From Cryphonectria parasitica EP155 (Eukaryota; Ascomycota; Sordariomycetes; Diaporthales; Cryphonectriaceae), in NCBI RefSeq assembly GCF_011745365.1, contig NW_024468916.1, positions 2,959,630 through 3,023,629 of the forward strand: DNA of 64,000 bases. The letters are read 5' to 3'. Of the stretch, positions 58,164 through 64,000 are shown one piece after another; position 1 is the first letter of the stretch; each line of letters opens with the position of its first letter. A model generated the notes under the pieces. That model was not told the DNA's origin. It saw only the letters and a program-made list of their open reading frames with translations, and did not search any database. The position numbers and the translations under genes are program-made.

Positions 58164-60325
58164 CTCTACACGACGAGATCTTGAATACAATCTGATCAAC
58201 GAAGTTGCTTGGGCCTGTTGATTCGGATGTCGAAACATGTAATCATTGCGGTCAACAGTTGTGGTACACACTGTTTCAATGTATCATTTTCAAATGAAAA
58301 TAAATGGCAGATAACAGCGGACCCCGCATTCCACGGTCTGGGCATGCATGTACGACACGATCCACTCAACGGACAGCTTTACCGACTCGGAATGTCGGTT
58401 TCAGTCTACTGCGAGGGCGGCCCCCAAAGGGCGTTCGTGTGCAAGGAAATCATTTTTAGCGTTGTCAAAAGCTCGCTAACATCATTCGGTAGTCTTGAAC
58501 AGCAACAAAAGAGAGAGGTTGATGGGAAGATGTGAACGTCAGGGGTTCCTCGCTTGACAGCCTCGCAATACTAATCGATTATGATGATAATTTCTGCTTG
58601 TGCCCACCTTTACCCATTCTAAATAATCAATAAATCTACCATATATTTGATGAATATTTGGCATCTGAGCTTGTTGGAGAATATTCTCTCCTTTCTTCTG
58701 TCTTGCTCTTTTTCTTTTTTGTCCATCATCATAAAATGGTTTGCCATGAAAACAACGATCAACGGCCGTATGATTGTCAAACACTCTCTACGCTACATGC
58801 TACCTTTTAATTACTTATATCAGAAAATGACCATGATGAGGATGCATAATGTCAGCATGCTAAATAGATTACAGCTTAGAAAGATATCGAATCCGAAATC
58901 AAGGTTCATGAGAGAACATACAAATTCGCGGACACGCCTCAGTCTTCTTCAAGTGGCAATATAATTCAAACATAGCAGCGCTCATTTCAGTCGGTGGTTC
59001 AGAACTAATTTGAGATACTTTAGTCATGACCCAAAAGAAACACTTATCATGAGTTCTGAAAGTGCTGAATTCTATTTGAAGGTCTTGGTGTGATTTCCAA
59101 GGTCATAGTATGTGATAAATGGTCAAGGCCATTGCCTTCGCAACCGCTGCTAAATGTGTCCGGTGGGCCAATACTGAGGAGGCCAGTGTGCTTGTTGGCT
59201 CTGAGGTGCCTGCCGTGTACATTTTGTTTTTCGAAACCGGACTTCGTTGTTGAATCCACTTACAGGATCGACTTCATCTGAGTGAGTCAACATTTGGAAT
59301 CACACTCGTCCTGTCACCACCTCTTGGTCAGCTTCGCGGAATTCGGCAGACTCAAAAAGAAATTGACAATTCAGACTCGAGGTAGGTTGGGTGACATGCA
59401 GCCTACTTCAATCTGTCCTCTTGACATATCTGGCTAGTTAACGTAGGGTTGTACTTCTGATCATGTTACGCTTCAGGTGTCTCGTTGCCAATTGAATAAC
59501 AAGGCTGTGGGAACGGCAGCGGGGCATCAGGGTCCCACACCTCCCTACAGACACGGCAGAGAGATAATCGATTGGGCAAAAATCCAAACTATTTGGGAAC
59601 TGCTGACGTGTTAAATTGCTTATTTGCATCAGTTTGGGCGTTCAGTCATTCCCAAAATGCAACTCTGCCTGCCAATATCAAGAGACAAACTGTCCGGGTG
59701 GTCTGTCCCGGTGAGCTCTAGGTTTCTTTCGCAATTTCTGAGACTTGCTACTTACTTGTACAGCTACATTTGGGTTGGAGATTTTTATTTATTTATATAT
59801 TCCTCGACATCAAGTCTTTCGTCCAGTTGTACTGGAGCTCTAATATTCATGTCTGTAGTATTGATATGGTTGGCGAGAACAGGTTATTCTGGCTCTTGCT
59901 ACCTTGGATTGCAAGTGAGTTGCCATGCACTGTGCTCGAACACATTAGTTACCTTTCATACGCATCTGCATGAGGATCTCGAATAGTTCAGGAGACCCAA
60001 CCGCGTCTATCTTCGGCCCTTTTATCCCGACCAAGCAGAAGTGGCTTGCAGACGTGCTAAAGGATGGGTAGCAATCGCTTAGAGGCTTGATAGCTCGAAA
60101 AGTCCAGCGCGAGTACGGAGCAAAGGAAAATTGCTCGTAGATGCAGATCCGGACCCGATTTTCAAGTGTGCTGAGCCTTACAAGTATCCCCATCACCCAG
60201 GTTTGCAGGATGTTTAGCACATAATGTGCATTATTGAATGCTATATTCTCTCAGGCTGCTCAGTTGAATAGCTTCCAAATTGTTACGCAATACCTTGAAA
60301 CCGTCATTCATTACCGAATTATAAA
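58164..60325. other. Intergenic 2.2 kb, AT-rich
   Basis: Divergent space between the monooxygenase (minus) and the kinase-HET gene (plus). AT-rich with scattered short frames; none has motifs. Confidence 0.55.
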
Positions 60326-63300
60326 ATGGGCACACGCAACGGCAAATCCGAGTTGGTGGAGGGAATCTGCAATGGACTCATTGAATATGACTTTGAAGGA
60401 GTTCGCACAAGATTCTTACCCGAAGATGTGATTCACAATCTCATCAACGAAGCTTCTGTCAGGAATGAACTCAATTCTAAGGCCCGTTGTCTCGTGCAAT
60501 CTCTCACCAGTCGAGGACCTGATGAACTCACAAAGTTTATCACGAATTCGAAAGACCCTGCGAAAAAGGTGTTCGCAGCTGCGATTCTTGCAAACATCAA
60601 AGATCAAGAACTGAGGAATTCAATGCGCGGCTTCAGGGACAAGAAGTTCACTGACAAAGACCTCCCTCTCCGAGAAGGGAGCGACATCCTTGAGAAGCGA
60701 AGCTATGATTTGTTCCAGGAAAAACAATTCCAAGTCTCTGCACACATTTTCACAGAGCCTGAGTGCGAAAAAGATTTCAGGGTCAAATTAAACACGTTCA
60801 GTATCTTTCCCTTCGAAGAAGTTGAGTCCAAAATTGGAGCTGGTGCATTCAGTAAAGTCTACAAAGTTCGGATACACAAGTCGCATCAAACAGTCAGTCA
60901 TCTAAGCATGGGTACAGAATCATTGCTGATGTGTCCTCAGTTTCATGAAAAACAAGAGTGGTTTGCAATCAAGTCCATCACGGCTGACAGCCTGGACTGT
61001 AAGGCTACCGAGTCTGCGTTCAACCAAGAGGCGCAAGCCCTCTACGAGACGAGTCAGCTCAAGCACCCGAATATAGTCCGAGCATTTGCAGCAATAAGCA
61101 GGGGGAAGGGACGCTATTTCCTATTCGAATGGGCAAACAAGGGCAGTCTAGATGACTTCTACAAGTCAAAGGAGCCGGAATTGAGCCGCGGATACATCCG
61201 CAATATTGTTTCACAGCTCCTAGGATTAGCTAACGCCATACGCCGTCTTCATCATTTCGGAGGCGGAGAGTCATATCGCCATGGCGACTTGAAGCCGGCC
61301 AACATTCTCTGCTTCGGCGACGACAATGATAGCATTGGACGTTGGAAAATCAGTGACTTAGGGTTAGCGAAGCATCATATGGAAGTCACGGCTCTGCGAG
61401 GTCCAACGCAAACGAGACACAGCACGATACGCTATGAAGCACCAGAAACGACAACTTTACAGCAGGGAGGGAGGTCTCGCCAATACGACATGTGGTCCCT
61501 GGGCTGTATCACTCTGGAGCTGATAGTCTGGTTGCTGTATGGACACAAAGGCCGCGATGCCTTCAACCAAGACATTGGGGATAACAGCTATTACGAAGTC
61601 CACGACACGGGCGCTGTCGTTCATCCAAGCGTGAAGTTCTGGATGGACCATATCCAGGAAAATGACCCGGAGTGCAGTTGTGAATCTTCTGCTCTGCGCG
61701 ATCTGCTGGGAATGGTTAATAAGAAACTGATTGTTGTCGCTGTCAATCCAGGTTCGAACACATCTGAAGAGTATTCAGTCAACACTTCCGAACACCCCGT
61801 CACCGTCACGGTAATGCAACCAGACAGCGGTGGTCCAGTCCAGCAGCAGTCATACCGGAGCACTGCGAAAGACTTCGATAATGCGCTGCGTAATATGACT
61901 AATCAACACCAGGATCATGATGATCCCTATTGGTTCACCGGAGCTAGAAGAGACCAAGTCCAGCGCCCTGTAATCCCCAAGCAGAGACAGAGACACGGAA
62001 CTTATCTTAAGGTCGCCGATGCCATGAAGCCACCTCCGCGACAAAGGGAACCAGGCCTCCAACCGTCCCATGTAAGGAGAAACTATTCAATAGGGTCATC
62101 TTTTTGCTGATTCAGATATTTTCAGACTGTGCGTACGTGTCGCTGTCGACTCTAAGCCCCTTGGCTGACATTGGAAGCATCAATATTAGGGATCCTCACA
62201 AGACGTATGTCGACAGCCCCAACATTGTTTCAACGAGCTCCTACTAACCAAGTGTGTAGTATGTAAGACACCACTGCATTTACTGAGAGGCTGACAAACA
62301 AGCACCTAACAAGATCAATTCTTTCAATAGAAGGTAAGCCTGAAAGTTGCCCATCCCTTTATTTACCTTGGACTTTTTTAACGAATTCTGTTCTCCGAGG
62401 GGGGGAAATGCTAATATCATATTTAACAGCATGTAAGTTGGACCAGAAAATGCTTGCACGGGAGTATGTGAATTGCTGAGGCCTGAGCTGACTTATATTG
62501 TTTTCACAGCCGGTGAGAATCCAATTTGGTTGACCTACCATTACTGCTGCTGATTCGAAGGTCAGCCCGTATGTATCCCTTTTACATATAGACACGAGCA
62601 GTTCGCTGACAGATATTAGTTGAACATTGACGTCTGGAAATTTGAAATCGACAATACTTTTGCCAAAGAGACTCTCCGCAGGATTTCCTTGGTCGATTCA
62701 GAGCCTGTGGCCTCCCAAAAGCCCGCACAACTATGTCCAAAATGTAGCAAGATGAAATTCTGGGAACCTGCCTTCAAAATTGAAGAAAGAGCGCTTGATT
62801 TGGAAACTCAGTCCACAGAATGCGACTTCTGCCGACTTCGGTTGGAGGTCTGTCCGAATAACGCGTCTGAACGTAAGAAAGACAGTCTCCAGATTCGATT
62901 TGATCTGGAAGACAGCGTCTTCAAGTTGGCACCACACAACAAGCCTGTGCTTTCACTTCTCAGGAAACCGAAGAGTGGTACGTCAGCACAGAGGCAAACA
63001 CACATTCAGCATTAATTCCTGACTCAGGACTAGAACTGGCACCCGTGTCGATGTCGAACATCCAGATTGGTGTGTCCCAACTTGCCAAAACTGGAAGCAA
63101 GGCACAACTTGAGATAATCAGACAATGGCTGGAGCATTGCGACAAAAACCACTCAGAATGTTGCCCTGCTGCCCTCTCAACCAGCGGCTTCTCCATCCCG
63201 ACCCGGCTCGTCGATGTGGGAGAGCCACAATGTCCTTCAATCAAGCTCGTCAAGACGAAACCAGGCGACCAGATGAGATACATTGCATTGTCACATCAAT

Positions 63301-64000
63301 GGGGGAAACTGAAGCACTTTTGTACCACGATGCAGAATATTGAGCATCACAGAGACAAGATCAACATGCACGAACTTCCAAGTACATTTCGCGATGCAGT
63401 GAATGTAACAAGGGGGCTGGGCATCCGTTATATATGGATTGACTCGATTTGCATCATTCAAGGAGCGGACGGCGATTTCCACCAAGAAGCTCCGAAGATG
63501 GAGGGAGTGTTCAGCTCAGCGTATGTGGTGTTGGCAGCGAGCTCGAGCGATGGGCAGAATGATGGGTTTCTCAAGGAGCGTGGAAGTCGGCAATGCATCA
63601 GGATCCTACACGAGAACATGCCGGACTTTTACATCGGTCATTTTATTGACGACTTCACCAAGGACGTCATAGACAGCCCGCTGAATAAACGCGGGTGGGT
63701 GCTTCAGGAACGAGCCTTAGCTCGCAGGACAATCTACTTCACACATACTCAGACATATTGGGAGTGTGGACAAGGAGTGCATTGTGAGACTTTCAGGAAG
63801 ATGCATAAGTGAGTTCTCCGTTTGGACTTTAAGAAAAGCTTCTTGGCCAGTTGTTTCTAATACAAGATCTAACCAGCGAATTGTCATCATTCATTGGCGA
63901 CCCAAATTTCCCAATGGTAGCCCTCAAATCCACACGCGGTGCTCGGATTCGGTTGTTCCAGAACTTGTACAGACAGTACTCTCGCCTTGATTTCACAAGG
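60326..64000 (+). CDS. Ser/Thr kinase-HET fusion, 3' end cut by window
   Basis: Exon 1 (60326-62071, 582 codons) holds an N-terminal region (1-160) and a kinase domain: G-loop GAGAFSKV 171-178, Lys216, Glu235, catalytic loop HGDLKPAN 319-326 (HGD instead of HRD), DLG at 344-346 instead of DFG, APE 372-374. All key residues are present, so activity is plausible. Seven microexons (see the tract entry) then join phase 0 to 62620-62977, which carries WKFEIDNTFAK and a Cys-pair segment (LCPKC, ECDFC) typical of the region before HET. Next exons are 63028-63808 and 63877-64000+. The HET domain shows YIALSHQWG (797-805), YIWIDSICI (about 848-856), GWVLQER (935-941) and a partly visible YSRLDFT at the edge. 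1014 residues are visible. The alternative is two separate genes; frame continuity and the family pattern favour one. The predicted role is kinase-regulated incompatibility or cell death. Confidence 0.75.
62072..62619 (+). other. Tract of eight introns separated by seven microexons
   Basis: Proposed introns: 62072-62125, 62129-62189, 62205-62259, 62263-62330, 62334-62429, 62433-62509, 62513-62565, 62569-62619. Donors are GTAAGG, GTGCGT, GTATGT, GTAAGA, GTAAGC, GTAAGT, GTGAGA, GTATGT. Each has a CTRAY branch site 9-21 nt before its AG (CTGAT, CTGAC, CTAAC, CTAAC, CTAAT, CTGAC, CTGAT, CTGAC). The exons between them are act, ggatcctcacaagac, tat, aag, cat, ccg and ccc, all multiples of three in phase 0, adding the linker TGSSQDYKHPP between kinase and HET parts. 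Three acceptors (62125, 62259, 62565) were picked over nearby AGs because of branch distance. Whole-tract removal as one 548-nt intron is also in frame. Confidence 0.6.

Follow-up and report, generated by a model that had tools for sequence, protein, structure and literature searches.

A predicted kinase-HET fusion gene of Cryphonectria parasitica EP155 carries, between its kinase and HET parts, a tract that is best parsed as eight complete introns (51–96 nt) and seven consecutive microexons, six of which are a single codon. The tract occupies positions 62072–62619 of the window, the 64,000-nt stretch of DNA analysed here, and Pfam places Pkinase (2.9e-32) and HET (3.9e-29) on the window's two frames, with the kinase domain N-terminal to the HET domain in one predicted protein. 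We consider it probable that this is an old coding tract with one codon per exon, from which the introns are removed one by one with mostly full inclusion, and which acts as a brake on HET. The microexons measure 3, 15, 3, 3, 3, 3 and 3 nt and would contribute the peptide T-GSSQD-Y-K-H-P-P-L; the introns measure 54, 61, 55, 68, 96, 77, 53 and 51 nt, and all are GT..AG and phase 0. The initial annotation had described exactly this arrangement, in frame between the two domains, with each intron possessing its own donor, branch site and AG. Its seven microexons and eight introns were recovered, the coordinates 62260, 62331, 62430 and 62510 are exact, and a YTRAY branch site is present in all eight introns, with the branch A 10–21 nt before the intron end. 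The complete gene model, which has 12 predicted exons including the 7 microexons in one run, is as follows.

60326..60892, + strand: exon 1, start of the kinase protein (ATG at 60326; open frame 60299-62110; gene model)
60893..60940, + strand: intron 1, 48 nt (GTCAGT..CAG; in frame, without stop)
60941..62071, + strand: exon 2, kinase domain and first part of the linker (Pkinase 2.9e-32)
62072..62125, + strand: linker intron 1, 54 nt (GTAAGG..CAG; branch A 15 nt before end)
62126..62128, + strand: microexon 1, ACT (T); donor GTGCGT next, the same as after paralogue microexon 1
62129..62189, + strand: linker intron 2, 61 nt (GTGCGT..TAG)
62190..62204, + strand: microexon 2, GGATCCTCACAAGAC, 15 nt (GSSQD); supplies the D of the DY motif
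62205..62259, + strand: linker intron 3, 55 nt (GTATGT..TAG; branch A 12 nt before end)
62260..62262, + strand: microexon 3, TAT (Y); paralogue TAC (Y)
62263..62330, + strand: linker intron 4, 68 nt (GTAAGA..TAG)
62331..62333, + strand: microexon 4, AAG (K); paralogue AGT (S)
62334..62429, + strand: linker intron 5, 96 nt (GTAAGC..CAG)
62430..62432, + strand: microexon 5, CAT (H); paralogue CAT (H)
62433..62509, + strand: linker intron 6, 77 nt (GTAAGT..CAG)
62510..62512, + strand: microexon 6, CCG (P); paralogue GAA (E)
62513..62565, + strand: linker intron 7, 53 nt (GTGAGA..CAG)
62566..62568, + strand: microexon 7, CCC (P); paralogue CCG (P)
62569..62619, + strand: linker intron 8, 51 nt (GTATGT..TAG; branch A 10 nt before end)
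62620..62977, + strand: exon of the HET N-terminal region (LNIDVWKFEIDNTFA..); matches the HET-N profile built from relatives
62978..63027, + strand: intron, 50 nt (GTACGT..CAG); paralogue counterpart 69 nt
63028..63808, + strand: HET domain exon (HET 3.9e-29)
63809..63876, + strand: intron, 68 nt (GTGAGT..CAG); paralogue counterpart 65 nt
63877..64000, + strand: last exon, extending 666 nt beyond the window end as read in locus L009

The kinase intron at 60893-60940 has a paralogue counterpart of 72 nt at about the same place; being 48 nt long, in frame and stop-free, it could be retained silently. Just beyond the window end, a by-eye reading of the DNA (L009 5190-5930) gave an apparent repeated Gly/Ser/Tyr-rich coding segment.

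A search of the genome (43.8 Mb, 17 contigs) revealed a paralogue with the same architecture on contig C4 (locus L010, minus strand), at 55% identity to the window gene over the best HET stretch and 49% over the kinase stretch. Its linker tract, of 567 nt compared to 548 nt in the window, likewise parses into eight introns and seven microexons (6, 3, 3, 3, 3, 3 and 3 nt; AAAATG, ACC, TAC, AGT, CAT, GAA and CCG, giving KM-T-Y-S-H-E-P-L), with a YTRAY site in seven of the eight introns. Three further introns are paired in the two models, one in the kinase part and two in the HET part, and the donor GTGCGT directly follows microexon 1 in both genes. The aligned codons from the Y onwards (window/paralogue) are TAT/TAC, AAG/AGT, CAT/CAT, CCG/GAA and CCC/CCG; the residue is kept in three of these five single codons (TAT/TAC, CAT/CAT and CCC/CCG), in two cases by silent change. 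The intron sequences are unalignable, matched pairs showing no greater similarity than unmatched pairs (mean z –0.12 versus 0.31), yet the lengths of introns at corresponding places correlate (r = 0.84, p = 0.004 by exact permutation, with 156 of 40,320 as high). The occurrence of the same layout in a distant paralogue makes the chain look both real and old, with DNA-level conservation seen in two genes within a single genome. The weakest members of the window chain are ACT and the 15-nt exon, opposite which the paralogue has 6 nt and 3 nt; the boundary of the latter exon (62190-62204) is the least certain.

A partial EP155 protein at NCBI (P0062, 386 aa) is identical to residues 720–1105 of the C4 model (L010 3000-7100) and begins after the HET-N exon, so that it lacks the kinase, the microexon tract and HET-N. 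A kinase paralogue on contig C2 (L019 3300-6510; 42% over 282 residues) is followed closely by another kinase stretch, and no HET was found near it among the matches listed.

The two tracts also bear on the possibility that the exons are real and the tract functionless, its introns having been gained locally and harmlessly at adjacent codon boundaries, a reading that overlaps our preferred one and that we regard as a minority prospect, albeit a sizeable one. The ordinary RNA structure of the tract (fold z-score 0.28), the dissimilarity of the introns and the failure to find another copy in the genome are in keeping with it, as is the gradual intronization into adjacent microexons proposed for a plant Peptidase M1 gene (PMC11096116). 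Against this, the two old paralogues agree in their number of introns and match in intron lengths, which would suggest retention over drift. An origin by tandem repetition or from introners was considered and rejected: no tandem repeat was detected in it at the score threshold applied, the introns are unalike among themselves, and the 548-nt tract gave a single match in the genome, namely itself (the absence of a further match being no proof of rarity).

The codons in the microexons are not arbitrary. A motif like 'DYxLPPL' precedes the HET N-terminal region in many relatives, for example DYTLPPLKDW (P0167), DYSHPPMDGIW (P0163) and VDYAHPNLDNKW (P0239). Full inclusion of the microexons gives DYKHPPLNIDVW in the window and TYSHEPLDSVW in the paralogue, and only then does the motif appear before the W of HET-N (DYKHPPL in the window, TYSHEPL in the paralogue); the K of window microexon 4 and the E and T of the paralogue depart from the usual letters. 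For the motif count, 132 of 161 rows were used, the 29 left out being both genes from the genome studied here, together with rows with a later profile start (a profile match that does not begin at the profile's first position). The Y pattern, which calls for a Y followed further on by L, M or F, fits 53 of these 132 placed relatives, and 79 are without the pattern as written; D stands before the Y in 46 of the 53, and P occupies the third place after the Y in 43 and the fourth in 39. Scored on a profile from the 53 Y-pattern relatives, random triplets from the same tracts equalled or exceeded the actual peptide in only 72 of 200,000 draws for the window (D and L fixed) and 90 of 200,000 for the paralogue (L fixed). 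A longer consensus, DYxLPPLxxWEFxVDN, derives from 65 hand-picked and hence biased rows, and the presence of the pattern in 45 of 62 placed rows is not evidence of frequency. Because the triplet peptide resembles the motif of relatives, the microexons look coding, and their full inclusion would rebuild a conserved motif.

Comparison with relatives in which the linker is continuous further supports this view. Among 14 hand-picked metagenome-type relatives, the kinase and HET start lie in one frame in 12, and the microexons therefore appear to fill the place of a motif that is unsplit in other fungi; gene calls from such sources were presumably left unspliced. Eight of the 12 carry DYxLP and four carry other letters at the motif place. 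In the AlphaFold model of P0118 (mean pLDDT 81.8), the motif D is residue 106, immediately after a stretch (67–105) with pLDDT under 50, and block means rise from 48 for residues 101–110 to 84 for residues 111–120. The HET piece gave no match in a PDB sequence search, and no fungal DNA was found when it was used as query against viral and prokaryote contigs. In the Xylaria models P0180, P0172 and P0174, one extra codon (P) before the HET region differs among close models, possibly a trace of a 3-nt exon or of an alternative acceptor.

The motif also weighs on a combinatorial linker, in which microexons would be included or skipped in sets to give up to 128 variants that tune crosstalk between kinase and HET. 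The annotated premise holds in both genes, since all seven exons are multiples of three and phase 0, so that skipping keeps the frame, and flatworm micro-exon genes of like layout use skipping (PMC4350168, PMC7653826). Nevertheless, the peptide lies near the motif of relatives, as the count of DYxLP among one-frame proteins indicates, and free variation would relax such a motif. We therefore find this reading unlikely, and the 128 isoforms by combined skipping possible but unsupported.

The kinase-HET fusion itself is widespread in the family, with relatives listed under both Pfam labels. To place the two genes, 76 hand-picked kinase-HET proteins were compared with the linker left out, using a quick tree method with SH-aLRT values only and a midpoint root. 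Cytospora and the C4 gene cluster together (96), and the window gene falls outside a set of nine (99) that also includes Diaporthe, Thelonectria and one Mollisiaceae protein; with the midpoint root, C8 and C4 diverged before the separation from Cytospora. If the chain was inherited and the root lies outside, the chain would predate the splits from Cytospora, Diaporthe, Thelonectria and Mollisiaceae. The motif before the HET region was found in none of the 11 public protein models of other members in the 13-row clade. In several of these models, the HET region opens with L-N or L-D and is directly preceded by unrelated residues, and LNEVW in the Cytospora and Diaporthe models marks the same HET boundary as in the window gene. 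We read the missing motif as failed gene models at an unseen chain, although the motif could also be absent or skipped there. The profile label 'no HET-N' on 6 of the 11 models is too harsh, as at least three (P0128, P0242 and P0243) show the HET-N start, and the 'Y motif' pattern label of P0204 and P0210 in the tree is probably spurious.

These public models bear on an alternative involving one long intron or two genes, in which the 548 nt would be removed at once, or would lie between transcripts, with the inner sites as decoys or unused. In the models of near relatives the motif is missing and the content at this place varies, and the NCBI partial EP155 protein corresponding to C4 residues 720–1105 starts after the linker region. 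However, the breadth of the fusion and the single frame in 12 of the 14 picked relatives speak against it, and conserved triplets amid unalignable introns require a coding reason, leaving this alternative improbable.

We also asked how readily such a chain arises from splice-like signals in general. A blind longest-chain search (introns of 45–110 nt with a GTRNGN donor and a YTRAY branch; exons of 3–15 nt in multiples of 3) returned eight introns in the window tract, identical to the annotated parse, and the earlier concern that part of the regularity came from the reader's choice of AGs does not stand. The longest chain in 2,000 shuffles under the same search was three introns. Three was also the maximum in a background of 524,941 strand-bases, comprising 43 strand-sequences (the window and fetched loci, both strands counted), and was reached in two of them: on the window minus strand, where TGA is required as an 'exon', and in L035. 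The paralogue yielded only five consecutive introns, because its intron at L010 4853-4779 is without a YTRAY site. The window tract contains YAG-NNN-GTRAG four times, where dinucleotide shuffles average 0.034, and the paralogue tract contains it five times, where they average 0.0425; in neither case did any of 20,000 shuffles reach the observed count. Spacings from 0 to 12 other than 3 occurred no more than once in either tract. The chain uses six of the eight AG-NNN-GT strings in the window tract and six of seven in the paralogue tract. When exon lengths of 0–15 were tried over the window and 30 fetched loci, only length 3 gave chains longer than two, and YAG-NNN-GTRAG chains longer than two were confined to the window gene and the paralogue, including overlapping fetched copies (window and L009-L038). 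Chance, or wishful parsing of splice-like signals by a reader who picked among acceptors at three junctions, is thus contradicted by the blind parse, the shuffles and the paralogue, and can be dismissed.

The preferred reading, a coding tract with each codon kept as a separate exon, would operate as follows. Successive codons of the linker segment would each stand alone between eight ordinary short introns (51–96 nt), each complete and taken out singly by intron definition, which is reported for Pezizomycotina (PMC5639578). Since acceptor and next donor are 3 nt apart, sequential removal is expected; neighbouring complexes at this distance would collide, and removal would be stepwise. Splicing intron by intron in the cell is predicted from the sites and phases, and full inclusion would restore D-Y-x-H/L-P-P-L at the edge of the folded HET region. 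Full inclusion is probably the main product, as the likeness to the motif makes constant inclusion more probable than skipping. Retention of any single intron introduces a stop in all eight cases in the window gene, 9–27 codons after the kinase exon, and in seven of eight in the paralogue, intron 6 being the exception. Translation of the HET domain in the window gene would therefore depend on eight splicing events. A truncated kinase would be the default outcome of splicing failure, and the tract would serve as an inbuilt restraint on a domain associated with cell death; such a damping role would be plausible. A bolder proposal is a splicing-counted gate, kept by a clade of fungal kinase-HET genes across the old duplication and probably across orders: HET protein would appear only once all eight introns had been spliced in turn, and regulated skipping or retention would decide between a product with the kinase alone and linker variants of an allorecognition protein. 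We regard this as speculative and rather unlikely; the chain would be the first of its kind described in fungi, as far as the open-access literature searched shows.

Seven consecutive microexons, six of one codon, would present an extreme test of the intron-definition spliceosome, with sites 3 nt apart, and of splicing order. Relatives keep a like motif unsplit, so the family allows a before-and-after comparison of intron gain or loss between neighbouring codons, for which intermediates are usually lacking. Gain of the introns in the clade and loss elsewhere are both compatible with the tree, which is midpoint-rooted and not truly rooted. Were such chains widespread, the models of HET and similar genes in fungi would be wrong at these places.

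The tract had also been presented as without a described counterpart. This stands for fungi to the extent that no chain of consecutive microexons was found there among the matches listed from the open-access literature; it does not stand more widely, as consecutive microexons are known from flatworm micro-exon genes (MEGs) and human RPS24. Introner-type families are set apart in that no near-identical copy of the 548-nt tract was found elsewhere in the genome. In a stwintron, a splice signal of the outer intron is broken up by an inner one, and the two need to be spliced one after the other (PMC5639578). The present tract resembles stwintrons and recursive splicing in having back-to-back introns that need consecutive splicing, but all eight window introns are complete and leave coding triplets between them. 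Correspondingly, no YAG-N(0-2)-GTRAG joint was found in the window tract with the pattern used, and YAG|GTRAG, the signature of recursive splicing with a zero-length exon, was counted zero times in both tracts. Isolated microexons, such as the 1-nt exons of plants and that of Trichoderma Xlr2, are easily missed (PMC8831610, PMC11121469), and according to a 2024 abstract no functional microexon had been described from filamentous fungi prior to Xlr2. In human RPS24, microexons of 3, 18 and 22 bp directly follow one another (PMC11162997); in the cases cited, one to three occur in a row, compared with seven here, six of them single-codon.

In domain content, the gene resembles the tol-like kinase-HET proteins, which comprise kinase, linker, HET N-terminal region and HET, many with DYxLPPL before HET; unlike in the 12 one-frame relatives, the linker here is split codon by codon. 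C. parasitica itself has 124 HET ORFs, with HET genes at vic1, vic6 and vic7 (PMC7849911). In exon layout, the nearest known kind is the flatworm micro-exon gene, with its runs of small symmetrical exons (PMC4350168, PMC7653826) that are hard to annotate (PMC7653826, PMC4350168, PMC10526429). The operational definition given in PMC7653826 (at least 7 exons, micro-exons of <70 nt and multiples of three making up at least half, and a run of at least 4) includes the window gene as predicted, with 12 exons and 7 microexons in a run of 7. A kinase and HET protein in a fungal genome nevertheless lies outside the flatworm MEG superfamily. Both share consecutive small exons with lengths in multiples of three, which would let an exon be skipped in frame. 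MEGs encode secreted parasite proteins from exons of 3–81 bp with introns of up to 5 kb, whereas the fungal gene combines introns of 51–96 nt with one-codon exons in six of seven cases and a peptide that resembles a conserved motif instead of varying.
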